DNA from: Gonapodya sp. JEL0774
Lineage: Eukaryota > Monoblepharomycota > Monoblepharidomycetes > Monoblepharidales > Gonapodyaceae
Length of the DNA stretch: 64,000 nt
Direction: 5' to 3'
NCBI GenBank assembly: GCA_027604505.1
Contig: JADIIX010000003.1
Location: 62,001-126,000 of the forward strand
Under the pieces are notes generated by a model. It was not told where the DNA came from. It saw only the letters and a list, made by a program, of their open reading frames with translations, and did not search any database. The position numbers and the translations under genes are program-made. Positions 49,600-64,000 of this stretch are shown here, piece after piece (position 1 is the first letter of the stretch; each line of letters begins with the position of its first letter).

Positions 49600-50085
49600 C
49601 CGCATTTAGTGAAGGGATAAGTGCACCTTGGGTCCCAAACTTCAGTTGCAATCTCGTTGGATATACGGCAAACTCGGTCGCAAACCACTGATAGATTAGA
49701 ATGGTCATATTTTCTCCGCATCGCATAAATTGAATACATAGATAGTCTCAGTGACGCTTTGCTGCCTGTGTGAATCAACGTGAAAGTTCTTGCAAGCACA
49801 TCCTTCGCTCTCGTTCATGCAATTATCACCCGCTACAAATGTGGATGAAAACCGTGTATAAAAGTGGTGGTGGCGTACGATCCCAGACTACTTCAACTCC
49901 AGTCGCCACAACTTCTACTATGTAACAATTGTAACCCCTCCAGGAGGATATCCACGATCTGAACCAGGGTATGAGGAGAAGTCTTCAAAGAGTACCCGCC
50001 TTAGAAGTTGTCACCCTCACCATCCAAAAACACGGCAAAACAGCAGGTCCCTCAAATAGGAGGTGAGACCTTCACTTATCGACAA
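49600..50085. other. Spacer including conserved U6 upstream block
   Basis: 3' flank of the ABC transporter. The last 55 bp (50031-50085) are identical to the sequence upstream of the second U6 copy and must contain its promoter elements; a CTCAAATAG stretch lies at about -36. Confidence 0.55.
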
Positions 50086-50190
50086 GTCTTCGGACCTCTG
50101 TCATCTAGAAAATTGGAAACGATACAGAGAAGATTAGCATGGCTCCCTGTGCAAGGATGACACGCAAGTTCTGAGATGGATCTCAAATTT
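50086..50190 (+). ncRNA. U6: U6 spliceosomal snRNA
   Basis: It begins with a short 5' stem-loop (GTCTTCGGAC), and contains the highly conserved block AATTGGAAACGATACAGAGA followed by AGATTAGCATGGC, and then AAGGATGACACGC, in the correct order and spacing. ACAGAGA is the 5'-splice-site-pairing box and AGATTAGC pairs with U4. One deviation from the common form is CTCCCTGTGCAAGG where many species read CCCCTGCGCAAGG. A T-run follows directly. The exact 5' end is inferred. Confidence 0.95.
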
Positions 50191-50197
50191 TTTTTTT
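50188..50197 (+). terminator. RNA polymerase III terminator of U6
   Basis: Ten consecutive T on the sense strand at the U6 3' end. Confidence 0.9.
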
Positions 50198-50470
50198 CTA
50201 TTCCCATAGTCTCTCTTCTCCCCGGGACTCAAGTCACTCTCCTACTCACTCTCCTGGTCACTCTCCCCGGGACTCATGTCGTCTCCTACGCTTAGAGTCA
50301 TCCATCTCAGGACTTGGGAGACTAACGTCACTGGAGTCTGGCTGAAATAGAGACGGACTTCAGTCACAGCGTACTACACAAGTCACTGTTGGGTGTCGAC
50401 AAGTCTGTTCAGTACTCCCGTTTCCCACCGCATGATGAACATATGTACATATCAACATATGATACACCTA
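50198..50470 (+). repeat. Left arm of a long inverted repeat
   Basis: This 273-bp segment occurs as its reverse complement at 52737-53013. By eye the two differ by one 4-bp insertion (GGCC) and one substitution. It starts with CTATTCCCATAG, exactly after the U6 T-run, and contains CACTCTCC repeats and the palindromic ATATGTACATAT. The arms enclose a short-chain dehydrogenase gene. No clear target-site duplication is visible at the outer ends. Confidence 0.97.
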
Positions 50471-50915
50471 TTGACATAACTCCCCGCAAATCAAGCCCGA
50501 GCCACGGTCTTGTCATTCTCGGTAACAGTCGGAGAAGGGGAGCATTGCTCACAACCATTGCTATTGTCAACGGCCTCACCGAGCTCATTTCACATGCGTA
50601 AGCCGTGCCGTGGCCCCGATCATCTCAAGCTGGCCAAAGAAGCACGTAAAATCCGCGAAACTCGAACGCAACACAGGTTGATCGAAGCATGCGAATGCGT
50701 ATAGCCGTACTTTTTACACAGAAAACATTTCAAATTGAGAGGCGGAGTCACGCGGAGCTTCATATCGAACTGTCCTGACCGTACCTGGCGCCACGTTTCT
50801 CATCAACGGAATAACGACCTTTACCCGTCTCTGCAATATATCAGCGCCTTCGATCTTGCATCATTTACCCTCTTGATCACTGAAAAGTATTGACTGCAAT
50901 TACATCACCGACACT

Positions 50916-51983: not shown

Positions 51984-52736
51984 ACATTGCAGCAAGTGAC
52001 TACGTATCATTGCATTTGAGTTATTGTTCTCATTTTATATATAAGTGTCTGAGACCGTTGAATCCACAGACGCAGACACTATAGCCACAACCGACTTGTT
52101 CATTCTCGGGTAACATCTGCCGAACATGAATATCATAAGGCCCCTTGACGACTCTTTCTCCGAAGTTATTCTGTAAGTGAAAGCCACGTTCTATGCGTGC
52201 CGGATGACCTCCAATGTAGGTGCACGAGGTGCACTGTGTTCGGTTCCATGATCCAATATTGTGGAATCGATGGAACCACCTTCACTAAAACTTCCAAGCT
52301 CGCAGAGCAAATGGAAATCATGACGCTGTGGTAGTTACGCAATGGTGTGGTGAATGTATAATGTGTGCATGCCTGATGAGTGGAACTCATCGTTCAAATG
52401 CTGTAAGGTACCCTGTACGTGCAAATGATCACTCCCACTCCACCAAAATTCCAAATGTGCATGTAAATATTTGATTCTGTGAAACAGCTACTCCAGAGCG
52501 GTACTCTTAGTGTCTTTGACAATACTTCCTTTCGCGCAGCCTTCAAAGCTGCTATATCGCCTCGCCCTTTTCTACAGTAACGCTAAATATAATATCTGTG
52601 GGTGTGGCGTGTTTTTGGTATATGGTGATATGATATAGTACGGCAGATTCACAAAAACCGTTCCCAAACCTCTGGATCAACTGCCACGCATGAATCACCA
52701 CCCATCGGCTCAACAATACGTTTATTTCGTAATGTC
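51984..52736. other. SDR 3' flank inside the inverted-repeat segment
   Basis: AT-rich 750 bp between the SDR stop and the right repeat arm. No gene was seen. Confidence 0.5.
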
Positions 52737-53013
52737 TAGGTGTATCATATGTTGATATGTACATATGTTCATCATGCGGTGGGAGACGGGAGTACTGAAC
52801 AGACTTGTCGACACCCAACAGTGACTTGTGTAGTACGCTGTGACTGAAGTCCGTCTCTATTTCAGCCAGACTCCAGTGACGTTAGTCTCCCAAGTCCTGA
52901 GATGGATGACTCTAAGCGTAGGAGACGACATGAGTCCCGGGGAGAGTGACCAGGAGAGTGAGTAGGAGAGTGACTTGAGTCCCGGCCGGGGAGAAGAGAG
53001 ACTATGGGAATAG
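52737..53013 (-). repeat. Right arm of the long inverted repeat
   Basis: Reverse complement of 50198-50470 with a 4-bp insertion (CCCGGCCGGGG versus CCCCGGG). The high identity implies a recent origin or gene conversion. Confidence 0.97.
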
Positions 53014-53594
53014 GAGAAGGCACCCTCAGACCCTGAGGCTCCTGCGGCACACCTGTGGGATGTCGTCAATATGTGGTACGATCACCACAACACCCCACAC
53101 GGACATCCCCGTCAGGCTGATGTTACAATGACACGAGGAGAAAAAAAATTACGAAGCGGTTGATTTGGAGGCATTGTGTGCCAACGTCGACTTGAATCTC
53201 GGCCTGCCTTCTGTTGCTGGCCTCAAGCAGTGGTAGGGGACGGCTTTTCTCGTCGTCGGCGATGGCTGGACAGCAAGCCCGTGGATGGATTATTGATTCC
53301 GGCGGTTGGTCCAATGTTCGGACCACTTGCTCATCTGAAGGGCAATAACCTAAAGGTGGTATACGTATATGTTATACAGGGCATTGCTGTACATCAATTT
53401 AAAAACTTAGGGCACGAAAGAAACCCTGAAGAGTCGGAGCACTCCTTGGGAATGGGGTGGTGCCTGATCAGGCAATCTGGCGGCGGATTCAGTTTGAACC
53501 TTCTTAGGGAACATTCCTGTTTCCCTACTGAAAATCGGCGTCAATACGAATGGAAGAAACACAACAATCTCACCCGAAATTGAGAAAGGAATGC
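53014..53594. other. Spacer upstream of the recombinase-like genes
   Basis: Between the right repeat arm and the start of part A. No gene was seen; presumed promoter. Confidence 0.4.
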
Positions 53595-55455
53595 ATGACT
53601 CTCGAGCAAGTGAGACCTTCCATCTTGCTTCACGAGGAGGTTTGCGACGACTCCCCTCACTCCAAATCAACGTGATTCGTCACCTGTTTCGTTTCAAAAG
53701 CTCCCTCTCCTCCTCATATCCGATATTCAGAACCATCTGAAGACCGGGCCTCTCTCTCACGTGTTCCGGGACATTACCTTTGCTCCATCTCAAGAAGTCC
53801 ACATTCCAGGCACCTGGGCAAATTTACACACGAACGAGACTCTTGATGCAGAAAACCTCGACACTGCACTTATCCCCCAGGTTTCAGTGAAACTGTCGGA
53901 GGGGCTTGTGGAGTTTCCCTTACCGAATGCCTACTTCTCATCGCTCGAGTATTGGCATGCGAACCGCCTGGACCGCACAGCAGGGTCTGAAGTCCTCCGG
54001 CACTCCAAAAGTACGCAGGGTGGAGCAGCGAACTTCCTCTTTACTTCAAAGCAGTGGATTCGTCTTCACTTGCACTCCCCAACCATTCCTGACCACCATG
54101 CTCCAACTCTGCCAGCATCTCTCTTCTCCACCCTGACCAATAATTCTTCATCTGCTCTTGCCATGGAACCTAGGCGGAAATCGGGTGCTTTTGCGCAGGG
54201 TGTGGCGCGGCGTGTTGCAGGTGACCTACCGGAACAGGATCGGGATGACTACTGGAGGAAACTCTATTTGGCATGGTGGCTCCTGCTGAATTTGAGGCTC
54301 AACGCAACAGATTTGAGTGGTATTGTGGACGTGGCTCCAACAGCGCAAGGCTGGGTCAGTTTTCCAAAGCACAGGAAATCCTTTGTCGACAGTCTCACCA
54401 AGATACTGCGGGACCAAAATTGTGCTCAGCTCGCTCTGTATGTTGGCCAAAGTCTACGAGAACTGAATGACAAGCTAAAACTGTCAAAGCTGGCTACACT
54501 CTGTCAACGGTTCGAAGTTGCCCATGGTATTTTTATAGCCCGAACATTCGGCAGGTGGAGATCAGGGGTACTCGTCAGACTCTCCAAACCACCACATAGG
54601 CAGTTCCAATCTGTCATGTTGCTGGATATTCTTGGAGTGTGGAGTGTTGGCCTCTTGCTGAAACACCACGATGCTGGTGCCGTGGTCGTTGTTGGTGGGG
54701 ATGTTCGAACCCTGGAATCAGAGGCAGCACTCGCAACCATCAGCAATCAACTTGGAGACGCAGTGAATGTGGTCTGCCACACCGTGGTTGATCTTTTTGA
54801 GCCCCCTTTCAATCCGGACGGCAGCGTTCGTGCTCAGACAATTGATTTGCTCAACAACTTGATCCGTCGAAAACTACTTGGCCAAGAGCGGCAACCAATA
54901 AAGGACAGCTTCAGCGCTATTAGCTGCTGGGAGGAATCCGAACCCGATGTTGTCTTCCCGCTGATTGTTATTGTGATGCGTGTGTCAGACTTTTGGCAAG
55001 CCGTCCGAAACGGAGCGCTTCTGGAGCAGCAGTTGGTTGGACTGTTCTTCGGGATCCTCAATGGACAGTGGGATGAACTGGCGCAAGTGGAAGTTGACGA
55101 TGACTTTGTTCTCGGTGACAACGGAGACAACTTTGATGGTGCATTCGACGCATCGGAAGTGGAGTCAGCGGCGCAAGCAAAACCCACCGGGAAAACCAGT
55201 GCTCGCATTTTCTCGCCAAAAGTCAAGATTATCCTGGAATTTGCGTCGTCAAATGTGCATCCCCTGAAAAGTCGCACGTTCTTGTCGTCCTGTCTCAACA
55301 ACATAGCCGATTCGACTGGTGGAATCCTCGCGACCATTCACCCAGATCGGTTGACTCGCAGACCAAATGAAGTACGCGAGGTACTTTCCGCTTTGCGTGC
55401 TAAAGGCCTCACATGGGAACTTCTGCATCGAAACGGAACGAGATGGTCAAAGTAG
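53595..55455 (+). CDS. Serine-recombinase-like protein, part A (two resolvase-type modules)
   Basis: Exons 53595-53609 and 53731-55455 join to 1740 nt, 579 aa; exon 1 encodes only MTLEQ. The N-terminal 230 residues match nothing I know. Module 1 (about 236-345) has ALYVGQSLRELN where resolvases have Y-x-R-x-S, then VVVVGGDVRTLES where they have the D-R-x-x-R helix, so its key arginines are lost. Module 2 (about 412-560) has VIVMRVSDFWQ with Arg422 and candidate nucleophile Ser424, then LLEQQLVG, Arg520 in LKSRTFL, and ATIHPDRLTRR (Asp544, Arg545, Arg548). These match the catalytic arginines and Asp of serine recombinases. An acidic insert of about 60 residues interrupts module 2. The frame stops at 55455 and overlaps the next one. 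The module assignment rests on motif order only. It could be a transposon gene or a domesticated one. Confidence 0.55.
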
Positions 55456-57066
55456 TTGAGGAGAAGGTGATGAAGCAAGTGGAGCAGGGCCGAGCTCTCG
55501 CCCAGCAACAAGCGTTTTACACCAGGTCACAGATGTTCCAGCGCCGAGTCTTGGCTTCACTCCTTTCTTTCACTTGCACTTCCACCTCACACAGTTCGCT
55601 CTTGGAAGTACAAGCGGGATTCCGTCGTGTGGAGTTTCCGATAAAAGGAATTGCGCGAACAAGCCCTGTGGCGTGGTGAGTTGCTCCTTTGCATAATCTT
55701 GCTTCTTTGTATGGGGGGAAATGGCCTACGGGCGGTGGGACTCATTTGGGTAGATTCGAGATTTCGATCGACTTTTAGCAACACCGGTGATTTCTTCATT
55801 TCTAGGGGAGCACGGGAACCATCTGAGCTATCGATTACCACTCAAACTTCCTTCTTGAAATCCATCGTGGGACAGGAACAACTCCATGTCGTTCCTTTGG
55901 AGGCCGTGACTGCCTCCGAAGCAGACGGTGGCCGTGTGCTTGAATTCATTCAGTCTTGCGAGAGGAATGCTATCGTCGTTGCAGTCTCGTTGGATCGTAT
56001 TAGTCGTTCAACATCGGGCCTCCAAAGTATCCTGGAACTGTGCTCAGCGAAAAGCATCCGGATCATTGTCCTCCTTTGGCACCTCGAGTCGTTTCTCCAG
56101 CTGAGGGGCTCTCTCTCTTCTTGTGCTCCACGTGACATAGCTGGATGGCGAACAGAATTTGCTCGCACGGTGCTTGGACTCCAATTCTCCTGGGATCCAG
56201 ATGTTGCGCTGGCTCACCTCCCTGAACTTGAGTTCTGCGCATCCAGTTCTTACACCATGCCGCTTTGCTTTCCAGGCGACCTTGTACACCTCGGAATAGG
56301 TAACGCAGCGATGAGGATGGAGCTTCAGTTCGGTGAAGATTTTGCCAAAAGTGGAGCACGAAGAGGAAGGGAGGCTGCAAGGTTTGAGCGTCCGGTGGAA
56401 CAAGATATCTTGAGGCTCGAGATGAAAACAGACGTAAGGAACGGTCTCTTGACACCCCGAGCCCAGGATGCCGTTGGCAATGTTGCGCAAAAATTTTTCC
56501 CGGGAGCGTCCATCGAAGTTTTGTCGAGCTCAAACCCCATTGACTGCTTCTGTGTCCATCTCCCTCCTGGAACTCCCCACGCCAGTGACTGCCAGTGCCC
56601 CTGTCGCGGATGTCAGAGACTTCGACCGTGTATTTCACCTGATTGTTGTGCTGACAGAGAGCTCACACCCTGCACATGCTCTTTGCTGTGTTCTTGCACC
56701 TGTTTGTCGTGTCACAGGGTTTCTGTTGAGGCCGAGTTGCAGTCCGATCCAGACATTTCAACAAGCGACGGTGTGGTCGTGTCAGGAACAGAGGAGAGCA
56801 GGAAGCGGGAAGTGGAGCAAGCTCAGGAAGGGGACTCGGAAGACGCGGATGACGGTTCTGCTGTACCTTGTATTACGCTGTGTGGACGGAATCGGTCGGC
56901 AAAGACAAAGTGGTGCTCCAAAGAATGCTATGTTGATTACAGCAGGAACAACGGGCACGTCGTACGCACCTGTGACTTTTCCGGCTGCACAAACATATGT
57001 CCACCCGGTGCAGGTTTGAAATGCGAGAGTCACGTGTGGCGATGTGCAAAATTGGGGAAGCGTTGA
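55413..57066 (+). CDS. Serine-recombinase-like protein, part B (third module plus Cys-rich tail)
   Basis: Exons 55413-55675 and 55806-57066 join to 1524 nt, 507 aa; the intron is GTGAGT..TTTCTAG. The start overlaps part A by 43 bp in the -1 frame. The first residues (EMVKVVEEKVMKQVEQGRAL) look like the long helix that follows a resolvase catalytic domain, so parts A and B may be one gene interrupted by a frameshift. Module 3 has GIARTSP (Arg82, Ser84), SELSITTQTSFL, Arg131 in GGRVLEF, and VAVSLDRISRS (Asp151, Arg152, Arg155), a complete set of resolvase hallmarks. Two Cys clusters follow: about 334-393 (DCQCPCRGC, CTCSLLCSCTC) and about 445-507 (CGRNR, KWCSKEC, CDFSGCTNIC), probably zinc-binding. 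The role is unknown; DNA recombination is the inference. Confidence 0.55.
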
Positions 57067-58121
57067 CCCAGGCTGGGTGTACGATTGGAGGGAAGTATGT
57101 TAATGGGTGTTTTGAATAGGCGTTATGATCCGGACGTGTGACTTGTAGTGCGAGTAGAATGAACAGACTTGTTGACACAACGGTACCGTCCAACATCTCG
57201 AGAACCACCAGCTCCCGAGTTACGACAGCTTACGCCGCACCTCTCATAGTTGGTGGTTCTGTTGCGAGGGTAGGCGTATACAGAGCGGGTCCAGTACCCT
57301 AGAGAGTCCCCGGCACGGGTTTGTCCGACCTCATTCTCTCACCTTCCCCGAGGCACGTTGACTCCACAGTATCCACCGACCACGTAGAGCACCTTTTCAT
57401 TGTGTTTGATGTTTTCGATTCGAGTCGGATGTTGGAGCAGCTCGCAGTGGGCGAGAAAGGTGGTGCGAGAGGAAAGAAGGTCAGCAACCGCGAGACCGAG
57501 AGCGAATGTTGATTCGGCCATGAAAGCAGTTGCGGCGCCATCACACACTCTGGGCGAAGCTATAATCACAGTTTCTGATTGGACGGAGACGAAAGATTGG
57601 ACGGAGGCGACAGATTGGACGGAGATGAAAAATTGGACGGAGACGGAAGATTGTACGGAGAACTGCGTCCAGTACATGACATTGAACGATCATTGCAGCC
57701 GACGCGCTAACCTTTACCCAGAGCTGATTCGATCAGCTATCCTCCTTTTTTCCATCGTTCACATATCATCATCCCGTTTGAGACCCACGACAGGGGTCGT
57801 CGCCGCTATGGCTGTCCGGTTCTCTCAGTCCAGTGACAGGTAGGTGTCTGATATCCAACCACACCAGAAGGCCACTCCCGTCCATCAAGTATCCAGTCCA
57901 TCTTTTTTATTGATTTTGCCGTGCTCGGGTAGTGAGAACGGGGGTAGGTGATGAGTGAATGCGGATCGTTGCTTGGGCGTTGGACCCACATATGTACAGC
58001 ACAAGTTCTTTTTTCCCCTGCCGACTGGACTGACACGCACAGCAACACTGAATGGAATGCTCATCAGAATCTGTGGAGAGCGAGGATCGAACCACCCATC
58101 TTCCTTGCCCCGGGCTAAGAC

Positions 58122-58147
<26 letters not shown>
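57067..58147. other. Spacer with tandem repeat and T26 run
   Basis: Contains the 18-bp repeat, a short segment (57155-57180) resembling part of the inverted-repeat arm, and the A26 tract (58122-58147) that forms the T-run terminator of the minus-strand U6. No supportable protein gene. Confidence 0.45.
57577..57663. repeat. 18-bp tandem repeat, nearly five copies
   Basis: Imperfect copies of GATTGGACGGAGACGAAA. Both strands are open through it (Trp-Thr-Glu repeats on plus, Ser-Val-Gln repeats on minus), which is a composition effect rather than proof of a gene. Confidence 0.9.
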
Positions 58148-58152
<5 letters not shown>

Positions 58153-58249
58153 GATCCATCTCAGAACTTGCGTGTCATCCTTGCACAGGGAGCCATGCTA
58201 ATCTTCTCTGTATCGTTTCCAATTTTCTAGATGACAGAGGTCCGAAGAC
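58148..58249 (-). ncRNA. U6: U6 spliceosomal snRNA, second copy
   Basis: Identical to the copy at 50086-50190 through the whole RNA, in the opposite orientation. The 55 bp upstream (58250-58304) are identical too, so the promoter was copied. The T-run is much longer (26 versus 10). Confidence 0.95.
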
Positions 58250-58304
58250 TTGTCGATAAGTGAAGGTCTCACCTCCTATTTGAGGGACCTGCTGTTTTGC
58301 CGTG

Positions 58305-59564: not shown

Positions 59565-61461
59565 ATGGGATTCGACTACAGCATCCTCGTCAACATCAAA
59601 GTCGACATTCGTCCCGATGGCATATGCATCCTCACGTTGAACAGGTACCCCCTTGTTCTAGCCCCCCTGTTTCCCGCGGTGGACGTTCGGAATCCCCACA
59701 AAACCAACCCGGCTGCCCCCCCTACCCTATTTTTGTACATAGGCCCGAACGCATGAACTCGTGGAATGATTTCATGGCCATGGAACTTATTGTATGTGTA
59801 GGCTGGAGTGGGGAAAGAGCAAGAGTGGTTTTGGATTCAGGAGCTCTTGTGGTTTGAAACGATGTCCATCCCCATCACCAATTTCGATACCCACCCAACT
59901 CTGCCGCCAATCACGCTTGGCCTCGGACTATGGCCTCCTCACCTGCATTCTCTAACCCCTCACCCAACCCGCACCCCACCTCCTGTCCTCCCCTTTCCCC
60001 TCATATCTCCAGGTCGCCTTCGAAGAACTCGACCGCGACCCATCCGTCAAGGCCATCATCGTCGCCGGAGCCGGCCGCGCATTCTGCGCAGGCGCGGATC
60101 TGTCCCCTGCCGGTGCGAAAATTGCTGCGAGTCGAAGGGTGGACAGGATGAACCAGCACAGGGATTCGGGGGGGCAGGTCACGGCCAGGATCGCGAAATG
60201 TAGGAAACTCGTCGTGGCGGCAATTCATGGGCCGGCTGTGGGCGTCGGTATCACTATGGTGGGTCGTACTCTCGGTCGGACTTTTGACGGATTCGCAACT
60301 CACAGATTTGTGTCGCTGGTGTTCACAGACTCTCCCCATGGACATTCGAATCGTGTACAAGGGCGCAAAGATTGGGTGCGGCTCGGTGGTGTAGCTCTCG
60401 CCTTTCATACGCAGGGGATTCATTCACCAACAAACCCCCACTCAAACTCCAACCTACCCGTTTTCCTTCAGCTTTGTCTTTGTGCGGAGAGGAATATTAC
60501 CAGAAGCCGCGTCGTCCTGGTTCCTCCCACAACTCATCGGAAAGTCGCAAACGCAAGCCCTGTTCATGCCTGGACGGGTCCTCACGTGAGCGAGAGAGTC
60601 GCCTACACTCGTCGGGTCATTGCTCTGTCGAGGCTCAAATAGCACGACCGTGTTCCTCACTCACCCACTTTTGGAAAAGTGCCGACCATCATCTCTTTAA
60701 CGGGCTCTTCTTCGACCTCATCGATTCGCCGGACAAGGTTCTCCCTGCGGCTATCGAATTGGTTAAGGAAATCGTTCAGAACGCGAGTTTGGTGTCGATC
60801 GCGATTACAAAGGTGCGTTGGAGATACAACCTTGAATCTTGAAACCGGCATCTCGAAACTGTGGTTCACGTGGCTCGTCAGGCAATGGTCTGGCACGACC
60901 AGGGTTCACCAGAGGGACAGCATTTGCTCGACTCCAAGGTTAGTGCGGGTTGTATCCTAATATTCGTCGCTTGCTATTTGGGCTTACATATGTGTTTCTG
61001 AAAAGGGCATCCTCTACACTGGTAACGGAGCGGATTCTCGCGAAGGAACATCGTCGTTCCTGGAAAAGAGGTGTGCTGGAACGTCGTGATTTCTCTTCGT
61101 AAACATCCACGATGACTCTCTATAACATTGAATTACTAGAATTCCCGAGTTTCCTGGTCGGATCGACGGGCCCAGTGGAACATACGGTGAGTCGCTCGTA
61201 CCCGTTCTTTGGATTCGCTCATTCACCTCAACCACTGATACATTCAGGCCTTCCAAGCTACTATCCGTGGTGGAACTCTCAAGACATTAGCAGTCCCGAT
61301 TGGGTGAGCTGAGTCGCAGCGCTCCTCGCACTGGGGATTCACTCTGGCTGGTAGACCTTTGCTGACCACGGTTGTCTACTACGCAGCCCACCGACCGTGC
61401 TTCGCAGCTCGCGCTGCTCGCACAATTCCGCAAAATTGAGGCGGAGAACAGCAAATTGTAG
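59565..61461 (+). CDS. Peroxisomal enoyl-CoA hydratase/isomerase (crotonase) family protein
   Basis: Eleven exons (59565-59644, 59743-59791, 60013-60258, 60329-60375, 60472-60585, 60680-60812, 60882-60938, 61006-61070, 61140-61186, 61248-61303, 61387-61461) join to 969 nt, 322 aa. Crotonase motifs are ILTLNRPERMNSW, AIIVAGAGRAFCAGADL (oxyanion-hole region), LVVAAIHGPAVGVGITM, GFVFVRRGILPEAASSWFLP and SPEGQHLLDSKG. The Glu in LPEAASS is the usual catalytic acid position. The C-terminus is Ser-Lys-Leu, a canonical PTS1 signal, so it should be imported into peroxisomes for beta-oxidation or dienoyl-CoA isomerisation. The tail (PSYYPWWNSQDISSPDW) is shared with the paralogue at 63318. The exact reaction cannot be fixed from motifs. 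Confidence 0.9.
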
Positions 61462-62687: not shown

Positions 62688-63317
62688 GGTAGCCAGTTTT
62701 GAAACGTCTTCCGGGAGTGATTGACTGCGAGGCCTCTTTTCCGCCTTCTCCGTGTCTAGATCGCGAGAACGATCAACCACGCCAATGTCCAAGGAACCTT
62801 CTTCGGAGGTTCGCTTCCGCTTCAGGCGGTTGGCAGCTTTCCGGATCACCGGCTGAATGCGCTGAGGCAGCGAAGAATCCGTTTTTGTATCGTCCAGGCT
62901 CGCGATTAAGCGCGAAGACCGGACGTGATAGGACGAGGTGAGAGCAACGAGGGGTTGGATGCCCAGAGAACGGCCAGGAAGTGAACCCAAGGACCGCTGA
63001 AAAGGGAATCGATCGAATGTTTTCTTGGCGGACGCGGCAAAGTGTCTGGACGGACGTCTGTTACCGCGAATGTCCGGCGAGTAAACGGCACAATGGAACA
63101 GTCTGGAGCCTTGGAATCCTGAATGTGTGGGCGGGGCCTCGTGATTCGGAGCTCACTGGCGCTGCTTGATTCTGAATCACCCTCTCAAGTTCGTCGCTAC
63201 GGTGCGATTCACTGGTGACCGTCGTTGAACGTTTGGAATGACAAACCCTCTCCCCTCACAGGTTTGGGCTTTGGTCACCATATCAACAACCCACTGTATT
63301 TGTATGTTATTCTCCAT
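62688..63317. other. Spacer or upstream coding extension of CKB1
   Basis: The minus frame that feeds the CKB1 start stays open through an acceptor-like CTTTTCAG near 63000. It may encode more of the N-terminus or be leader sequence. No separate gene is supported. Confidence 0.35.
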
Positions 63318-64000
63318 TTAAATTTTCGAGGCGGAAGCCTTCAACTCAGCTCCTCTTCGTCTATATTCCTCAATGTTAGAAGGCCAGAGAGGATCGGAGC
63401 TGACATCGGTGTGCTGCCACCAGGGGTAGTTAGATGGTAGGCCGTACTTTCCATTTGCTGGATCGTTCTTTACATTGAGACGGCCTGCAAATGCAGGAGG
63501 TCTCTTCTCTAAGAACGAAACGGCTCCTGTGCGTTGAAGAATAAAGTCAGTTGCATGCTCGTGCAGGCCACCAGAAGGTGAAGGTACGACGGACCTTCCA
63601 ATCGATCAGTGCCAGTGCTGGTGTGGTGAAGCATCTGGGAGTCAAGCAGATGCTGGCCTTCTGGAGTTTCGGCACCGTGCCAGACCAGTGCTTTGGTTAT
63701 CGCTGTTGACACAACAGAACATTCCACTGCGATTTCTTTCGCCAGTGCAAGTGCTGCAGGCAACACCTGTTCCGCCTTGTCGACAATCTCGGTAAAGAGG
63801 CCTTGAAACAGATGGTTTGATGCGGGAAGCACACGCCCAGTCATCATGAGAGCAAGGGAGCGTGACTTGCCGATGAGTTGTGGGAGGAAGTATGACGACG
63901 CCGCCTGCAAGTTTGCGTGAAAAGAATGGAAAGTTTGTGTTGCGCAACGCTGTCACACGTTGCTATGGTACGAATGGCGGCACTGAAGGCGAACTAACCT
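63318..64000 (-). CDS. Enoyl-CoA hydratase/isomerase family paralogue, C-terminal part (runs off window)
   Basis: Exons 63999 to beyond the window, 63595-63904 and 63318-63526. The visible part matches the C-terminal half of the gene at 59565: AASSYFLPQLIGKSRSLAL, GLFTEIVDKAEQVLPAALAL, TAITKALVWHG, EGQHLLDS, SFLEKRPPAF, then LPSNYPWWQHTDVSSDPL. It ends Ser-Lys-Ile, a PTS1-like tripeptide, so peroxisomal location is likely though weaker than SKL. The two intron positions differ from the paralogue: the segment from AASS to LLDS, cut by three introns in the other gene, is one exon here. The N-terminal half with the oxyanion hole is outside the window. Confidence 0.88.

Follow-up and report, generated by a model that had tools for sequence, protein, structure and literature searches.

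A gene in the genome of Gonapodya sp. JEL0774, an early-diverging fungus (Monoblepharomycota), appears to encode one chain with two tandem serine-recombinase catalytic domains behind an N-terminal region, and the protein is probably a two-headed fungal serine recombinase. The gene lies in the right-hand part of a 64,000-nucleotide stretch of contig C3 of this genome, hereafter the window, in whose coordinates all positions are given unless a contig is named; the matching NCBI protein is HDU93_005164, annotated as a "hypothetical protein". An initial annotation of the window had described a multi-module recombinase with three resolvase-like copies, the first of them dead, and with zinc-binding cysteine clusters in place of the usual helix-turn-helix (HTH) domain. 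We retain its numbering: modules 2 and 3 were recovered by the Pfam Resolvase profile PF00239, by shuffle tests and in a second fungal protein, D6C99_09911 of Aureobasidium pullulans, while module 1 was not. Most likely, the protein serves a fungal mobile element as its recombinase, or did so formerly and has been retained.

Two catalytic modules in the Gonapodya protein

In serine recombinases, the serine of an R-x-S motif is the nucleophile, and the arginines of a D-R-x-x-R motif lie around the phosphate. The sequence motifs of the family are named A, B, and C in the account given in PMC2715888. Both motifs described above are present in modules 2 and 3, and the initial annotation had placed their residues correctly, namely R422-x-S424, R520, and D544-R545-x-x-R548 in its part A (53595-53609 joined to 53731 onward) and R82-x-S84, R131, and D151-R152-x-x-R155 in its part B (55413-55675 joined to 55806 onward). 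On the spliced 1,063-residue chain of our working model, PF00239 matched two stretches with 37.2 bits (E 4e-9) in a search with 24,736 Pfam models, in which the cut-off for this profile is 23.3 bits. Module 3 alone scored above that cut-off (25.8 bits, E 1.2e-5); parts A and B gave 13.5 bits (E 0.076) and 22.9 bits (E 9.8e-5), respectively.

These matches were examined further by shuffling the modules and scoring them with profiles of known catalytic domains. The combined profile held 26 domains from invertases, TP901-type integrases, and IS607-type transposases, some of them near-identical, with phiC31 (misaligned) and one IS607 copy with stops left out. Against this profile, none of 1000 shuffles scored at least as well as module 3, and one of 1000 did so for module 2 (none of 1000 once an insertion of about 50-60 amino acids, carried by module 2, had been cut out). 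Module 3 was likewise matched by none of 1000 shuffles with an IS607-only profile and by none with a profile of the non-IS607 members, the latter giving 4 of 1000 for module 2 (5 with the insertion cut out). Moreover, module 3 matched the "DNA invertase" family of PHROGs (E 3.8e-4), and a MAFFT alignment of module 2 with 15 viral relatives contained 13 invariant columns, among them R17, S19, Q23, Q33, R115, D139, R140, and R143.

The core DR[LIMV][ST]R occurs twice in the Gonapodya protein, a count of at least two being reached in 2 of 20,000 shuffles; it occurs three times in 797 open frames of at least 100 amino acids (264 kb of genome), and two of these three occurrences are in this gene. 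A stricter pattern, which demands that the core be preceded by a hydrophobic strand followed by an R-x-S, is passed by three of the four modules of the two fungal proteins. The profiles of modules 3 and 2 matched each other around the motif in hhalign (P 0.0063); direct BLASTP comparison of module 2 with module 3, and a comparison of the same type between parts A and B, found nothing. Judged by these comparisons, module 3 is firmly supported, and module 2 with a smaller margin.

A relative with the same layout in Aureobasidium pullulans

One relative was found, D6C99_09911, a 790-residue protein with both modules in one annotated chain; it was returned together with HDU93_005164 at E ≤10 in a protein search with residues 540-770 of the working model (3,796 candidates scored). 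BLASTP of the NCBI model against D6C99_09911 gave E 8e-5. Three pieces of the locus are colinear with it: (i) a frame-1 piece matching residues 503-550 (34.6% of 52 columns, E 8.8e-4), (ii) a frame-3 piece matching residues 545-572 (36.7% of 30 columns, E 0.06), and (iii) exon 4, matching residues 631-725 (23.2% of 95 columns, E 7.8e-5). Each of three tests against shuffled versions of D6C99_09911 yielded no match as good in 500 shuffles. The initial annotation had proposed to look for a conserved order of modules in other fungi by BLASTP, and the same order is indeed present in this one annotated protein. The layout is common to an ascomycete and an early-diverging fungus, which makes an accident of a single assembly unlikely.

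Within D6C99_09911, PF00239 matched residues 620-723 with 21.4 bits (E 2.9e-4), which is below the cut-off. Against the combined profile, its module 3 was equaled by none of 1000 shuffles and its module 2 by one of 1000; module 3 gave 4 of 1000 with the IS607-only profile and none with that of the other members. The DR[LIMV][ST]R core again occurs twice, which none of 20,000 shuffles reproduced. When the four fungal modules were aligned with 11 known catalytic domains, the sole invariant columns were R, S, D, R, and R (15 of 15 rows), which we take to correspond to R8, S10, D67, R68, and R71 of gamma-delta resolvase. Furthermore, an hhalign comparison of the fungal module 3 pair with 15 resolvases gave P 6.7e-6 over 109 columns.

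D6C99_09911 ends soon after module 3 and lacks the cysteine-rich tail of the Gonapodya frame. The letters of that tail are present in Gonapodya as first described; its cluster 1, however, is an intron in the NCBI model, and both clusters are missing from the relative. Neither cluster matched a zinc family, and the proposal that zinc-binding clusters replace the HTH as a family trait therefore found no support. D6C99_09911 is one member sequence at 90% clustering, on one contig of 6,437 bp, and this single member hints at a patchy presence; the D6C99 genome presumably stems from the fifty-genome Aureobasidium project.

Other searches for relatives covered proteins, genome and viral contigs, and solved structures. 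With the part-B frame, 7,999 candidates were scored and none reached E 1; with the spliced chain, 8,000 were scored, and its own NCBI entry was the only protein returned at E 10. These protein searches depend on shared 5-residue words, and more distant relatives may exist. No relatives were detected in the viral contigs scanned with the part-B frame and D6C99_09911, or in the genome contigs scanned with the module 3 pair. Among solved structures, a sequence search had no hit with part A or with module 3; the part-B frame gave one row and module 2, with the insertion cut out, five, all at chance level. Among the literature matches listed, no title or abstract opening named a tandem serine recombinase.

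Proposed action of a two-headed chain and its alternatives

Serine recombinases act as assemblies of four single-domain subunits. In a two-headed enzyme, which is the most likely reading here, each module would attack one DNA strand through its own serine, and the chain would be a built-in dimer, one polypeptide cutting both strands of one crossover site. Two polypeptides would then form a four-headed complex that is elsewhere built from four subunits. Two catalytic domains per chain would fix the pairing of subunits, a natural version of an engineering aim. For such activity speaks the apparent conservation of the five catalytic residues in two distant fungi, and the "two live sites" of the initial annotation are plausible from the residues retained. 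Cleavage, strand exchange, a covalent-dimer role, and mobility are inferred.

Several results weigh against a two-headed recombinase. For module 2, these are (i) a PF00239 score of 16.0 bits for the module alone (E 0.013), below the cut-off; (ii) no match in NCBIfam or PHROGs; (iii) 33 of 1000 shuffles scoring at least as well with the IS607-only profile (13 with the insertion cut out) and, for the module in D6C99_09911, 120 of 1000 with that profile and 23 of 1000 with that of the other members; and (iv) an hhalign result against 15 resolvases of only P 9.3e-4 and probability 22.5 for the fungal pair. Because of the module 2 insertion, pairwise alignment leaves the R-x-S of the two fungi unpaired, so that its conservation rests on the 15-row alignment. 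Gonapodya module 3, in turn, fails the stricter strand-plus-R-x-S pattern. D6C99_09911 itself came up at E 3.8 against 5.8 billion sequences, which is chance level, and its support therefore lies in the direct pairwise tests. Structure prediction, by which the initial annotation had proposed to refute itself, produced only low-confidence AlphaFold2 models, with a mean pLDDT (predicted local distance difference test) of 36 for the single sequence of 54214-55452 and of 45.1, with a pTM (predicted template modeling score) of 0.38, for module 2 with 15 relatives. The reading frame requires introns and a frame change at about 55437-55470, and the junctions of the segment that carries the gene (described below) share no crossover dinucleotide of the kind a serine recombinase would leave.

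Against activity in particular, all four fungal modules have another residue at the Y6 position, and conservation at the R45 position is uneven, with no arginine there in either D6C99_09911 module. No DNA-binding domain was found on the protein, and no HTH family on the spliced chain or its N-terminal 293 residues. Of the profiles named in the initial annotation, PF00239 matched, but Recombinase PF07508 was absent from the protein and had no match in the genome at E 1 (introns disregarded), and the protein showed no zinc-ribbon domain.

The changes at the Y6 and R45 positions bear on a first alternative, in which the two-domain layout is real and the protein no longer recombines, being domesticated or decaying, with domains that serve DNA binding or are drifting. 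The frame change, the single copy of the gene in the genome (25 Mb in 381 contigs), and the lack of any known-recombinase sequence match in the protein and solved-structure searches point the same way. On the other side, R, S, D, R, and R are invariant in four modules of two distant fungi that are only 23-37% identical in the matched pieces, a pattern that drift in the absence of catalysis would not be expected to preserve. We consider this alternative somewhat unlikely.

That module 3 alone is a serine recombinase domain, and module 2 a chance resemblance around DRLTRR, is a less probable explanation still, and one we doubt strongly. It would account for the sub-threshold Pfam score, the missing NCBIfam and PHROGs matches, and the weak results of module 2 with the IS607-only and invertase-only profiles. 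Against it stand the combined-profile shuffles (1 of 1000 in each fungus), the R-x-S, Q, R, and D-R-x-x-R kept against the 15 viral relatives, and the hhalign match of module 2 to module 3. Further, no other long match of the frame-1 part to D6C99_09911 has an identity as high as the one containing DRLTRR-x-NEV.

Very improbable, finally, is a protein of three or more modules, the first of them dead. Upstream of module 2 lie the letters R-L-S and a stretch resembling a strand, and for one candidate segment, 1b, the shuffles that scored as well numbered 41 of 1000 in Gonapodya (IS607-only profile) and 48 of 1000 in D6C99_09911 (combined profile). Its R-L-S, however, is not common to D6C99_09911 in the pair alignment, and the remaining tests lend the module no support. 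With the combined profile, 647 of 1000 shuffles did at least as well as segment 1a (632 in D6C99_09911) and 266 as segment 1b; the IS607-only profile gave 768 for 1a, and the profile of the other members 606 and 738. In two of these cases, the module had no match at all, and the count is that of shuffles giving any match. The fungal pairs scored P 0.58 (1a) and P 0.44 (1b) against the 15 resolvases in hhalign. Pfam found no resolvase match in segment 1b or in the N-terminal 293 residues that contain segment 1a, and PHROGs matched neither segment. The conserved block LRL[NS]ATD[LV]S near the start of the proposed module showed no resolvase signal by profile shuffles or hhalign.

Gene structure and the NCBI model

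Frame 1 is open for 613 codons (53614-55452), frame 3 is open at 55404-55679, and frame 1 is open again at 55645-57066; part A thereby lies in frame 1, and part B runs from frame 3 back into frame 1. A GTGAGA donor at 53610 and a CAG acceptor at 53730 join exon 1 in phase to frame 1 (intron 53610-53730); the first intron of the NCBI model differs. The intron within module 3 (55676-55805) joins the frame-3 stretch in phase to the last frame-1 stretch, and the change from frame 1 to frame 3 may be an indel or a short intron. Our working model uses a 74-bp GT-AG intron there (55452-55525), picked from 50 frame-keeping choices. Because D6C99_09911 matches on both sides of this place, the stretch removed also seems to be coding, which suggests that the 1,063-residue model is not the final gene structure.

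Hexamer and synonymous-codon models were trained on 36 long open reading frames, taken from the window's first 50 kb and from 20 ten-kb stretches. By hexamers, frame 1, then frame 3, then frame 1 is favored overall. Over both cysteine clusters, the score of frame 1 is poor, with frame 2 leading around 56520-56640. The synonymous-codon model separated the frames poorly, and a donor-hexamer enrichment test was uninformative. Cluster 1 (56593-56718), the one treated as an intron by NCBI, has a pyrimidine-rich, acceptor-like 3' end in addition to its poor hexamer signal.

Two elements of the HDU93_005164 model look wrong. The first is an intron at 55350-55405: the Resolvase match of module 2 disappears under this splice while D6C99_09911 conserves the block in BLASTP, and we therefore read it as coding. 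The second is a fusion that joins the gene with an enoyl-CoA hydratase at a distance of 3 kb, which we regard as spurious. Two enoyl-CoA hydratase-like genes lie in this part of the window, at 59956-61458 on the plus strand, which is the fusion partner, and at 63306-63907 on the minus strand.

An inserted-looking segment between U6 genes and its repeats

The gene lies in a segment whose flanks occur a second time in the window, inverted and joined directly to each other in an empty-site-like copy (Table 1). Where the left flank differs from this copy, it does so at its outer edge, except for a single mismatch and a 4-bp indel, the only differences from 52738 on. The right flank holds a U6 small nuclear RNA (snRNA) gene, and the copy holds a second; a search of the genome that scored 47 of 1188 candidates found only these two U6 genes, which are convergent at a distance of 8 kb and have 450 bp of flank in common. 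The break falls in the U6 T-run, with a plus-strand A-run of 10 in the short copy and of 26 in the long one. The segment ends show no target duplication, and a repeat search found no inverted repeat there.

The simpler reading suggested by this arrangement is that the segment was inserted behind U6, without a recombinase footprint. An empty site would also be mimicked by a deletion in the shorter flank copy or by a fault of assembly. Target-primed reverse transcription is an alternative mover of the segment. In its favor, the segment's sense strand finishes with a run of A facing the T-run of U6; unfavorable to it are the missing target duplication and the presence of an intron at 55676-55805. 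Phage integrases act at the 3' ends of tRNA genes, and the U6 3' T-run would be an analogous site. It is conceivable, if distinctly unlikely, that the segment represents a new class of fungal mobile element of about 5 kb, its one gene coding for a natural covalent-dimer serine recombinase, and that it integrates at the U6 3' T-run without terminal repeats or target duplication. Were the insertion reading true, a eukaryotic element would be using a U6 gene as its landing site. For IS607, the account in PMC4058570 includes a circular-intermediate, overlap-dinucleotide model.

A short sequence of the U6 3' region, ATCCATCTCAGNACTTG, is found at 50165-50181, 50300-50316, 52891-52907, and 58154-58170, since each U6 copy is followed directly downstream by a flank that contains it again in inverted orientation. 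The genome holds just these four exact matches, and 0.03 would be expected in the window with up to 2 mismatches.

A dispersed repeat inside the segment looks non-coding; members on other contigs (L184-L190) share up to 1.6 kb at 67-82% identity. Neither the gene nor the recombinase profile had a match around these seven copies, in locus L182, or in 20 ten-kb stretches. On contig C4 (G000), short matches to the 3' part (235359-235596) and the 5' part (240857-240929) of the segment lie 5.3 kb apart in opposite relative orientation, with no recombinase-like frame in the stretches examined.

Table 1. Features of the gene, its segment, and the flanking copies (window coordinates)
Feature	Position	Strand	Remarks
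Proposed exon 1	53550-53609	+	ATG at 53550; start at 53595 in the initial annotation and NCBI model
Main frame-1 coding stretch (N-terminal conserved region and module 2)	53731-55452	+	Open frame; colinear with D6C99_09911
N-terminal block W-x3-R-[LV]-D-R-x2-G-S-x-V	53941-53994	+	D6C99_09911 97-114, 44% over 18 columns, E 0.13
N-terminal block LRL[NS]ATD[LV]S, near start of proposed module 1	54268-54327	+	D6C99_09911 214-233, 40% over 20 columns, E 0.13
Module 2, serine-recombinase-like catalytic domain	54931-55449	+	R 54979-54981, S 54985-54987, D 55345-55347, R 55348-55350, R 55357-55359
NCBI intron removing most of the module 2 D-R-x-x-R helix	55350-55405	+	More likely coding
Frame-3 stretch (post-module-2 helix, linker, first strand of module 3)	55453-55675	+	R 55656-55658, S 55662-55664; D6C99_09911 545-572 match, E 0.06
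Intron inside module 3, GTGAGT...TTTCTAG, 130 bp	55676-55805	+	Sequence and phase; D6C99_09911 alignment spans the join
Remainder of module 3, second catalytic domain	55806-56160	+	D 55993-55995, R 55996-55998, R 56005-56007
C-terminal region to stop	56161-57066	+	Cys cluster 1 56593-56718, Cys cluster 2 56875-57063
Segment containing the gene, 5,124 bp	53014-58137		Not present in the inverted flank copy
Dispersed repeat inside the segment, 3' of the gene	57195-57938		18 matches elsewhere besides self, 64-82% identity
Left flank	52729-53013		Inverted copy 50198-50480, 97.2% over 287 columns
Right flank	58138-58304		Inverted copy 50031-50197, 100% over 167 bp
Both flanks joined directly, inverted, empty-site-like, 450 bp	50031-50480		Near-identical copy; lacks exactly 53014-58137
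U6 snRNA gene, 3' T-run touching the segment	58143-58254	-	Rfam RF00026, 81.4 bits
Second U6 snRNA gene, convergent to the first	50081-50192	+	Rfam RF00026, 81.4 bits

Comparison with other serine recombinases

Both Gonapodya modules contain the same R-x-S and D-R-x-x-R as the PF00239 catalytic domains of gamma-delta resolvase, Gin, TP901-1, and IS607 TnpA. Unlike these proteins, the Gonapodya chain has two such domains, is encoded by an intron-containing gene, and carries the module 2 insertion, and none of an HTH, a PF07508, or a zinc-ribbon domain was found on it. Large serine integrases such as TP901-1 and phiC31 have a single N-terminal catalytic domain, followed by recombinase and zinc-ribbon domains. 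Their R-to-D spacing is similar, with 71 residues in a TP901-1 relative (L035) and 59 and 74 in the modules of D6C99_09911; by contrast, the Gonapodya chain has the catalytic domain twice, behind its long N-terminal region.

PF00239 loci number three in the Gonapodya genome: besides the present gene, there are L001, an IS607-type TnpA with a neighboring Fanzor-like TnpB, and L002, a third recombinase. IS607-type TnpA with Fanzor/TnpB is likewise a serine recombinase in a fungal genome, and L001 is the one such pair here; a published fungal case covered in PMC2715888 is that of IS607-family genes in Saccharomyces kluyveri. At L001 (contig C314, 2769-6158), minus-strand positions 1351-2073 encode the TnpA (NF033518, 139 bits), and minus-strand positions 240-2309 a TnpB/Fanzor-like frame of 689 residues (NF040570, 98 bits against a cut-off of 100), so that we class the locus, from its profile matches, as an IS607-Fanzor element in Gonapodya. 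Its TnpA has one catalytic domain behind a MerR-type HTH, whereas the two-module protein shows neither this HTH nor the NF033518 match, which was absent for modules 1b, 2, and 3. Relatives of the L001 TnpA were present in plasmid records and absent from the genome and viral contigs scanned.

At the third locus (contig C379, 1233-4556), PF00239 matched on the minus strand around 874-2000 with E 2e-6, and the D-R-x-x-R there reads N-R-V-S-R. Comparison of L002 with phage records, and directly with part B, returned nothing. A Y-A-R-M-S strand lies upstream in another frame, and because of this, the third recombinase seems to be intron-split and fungal.

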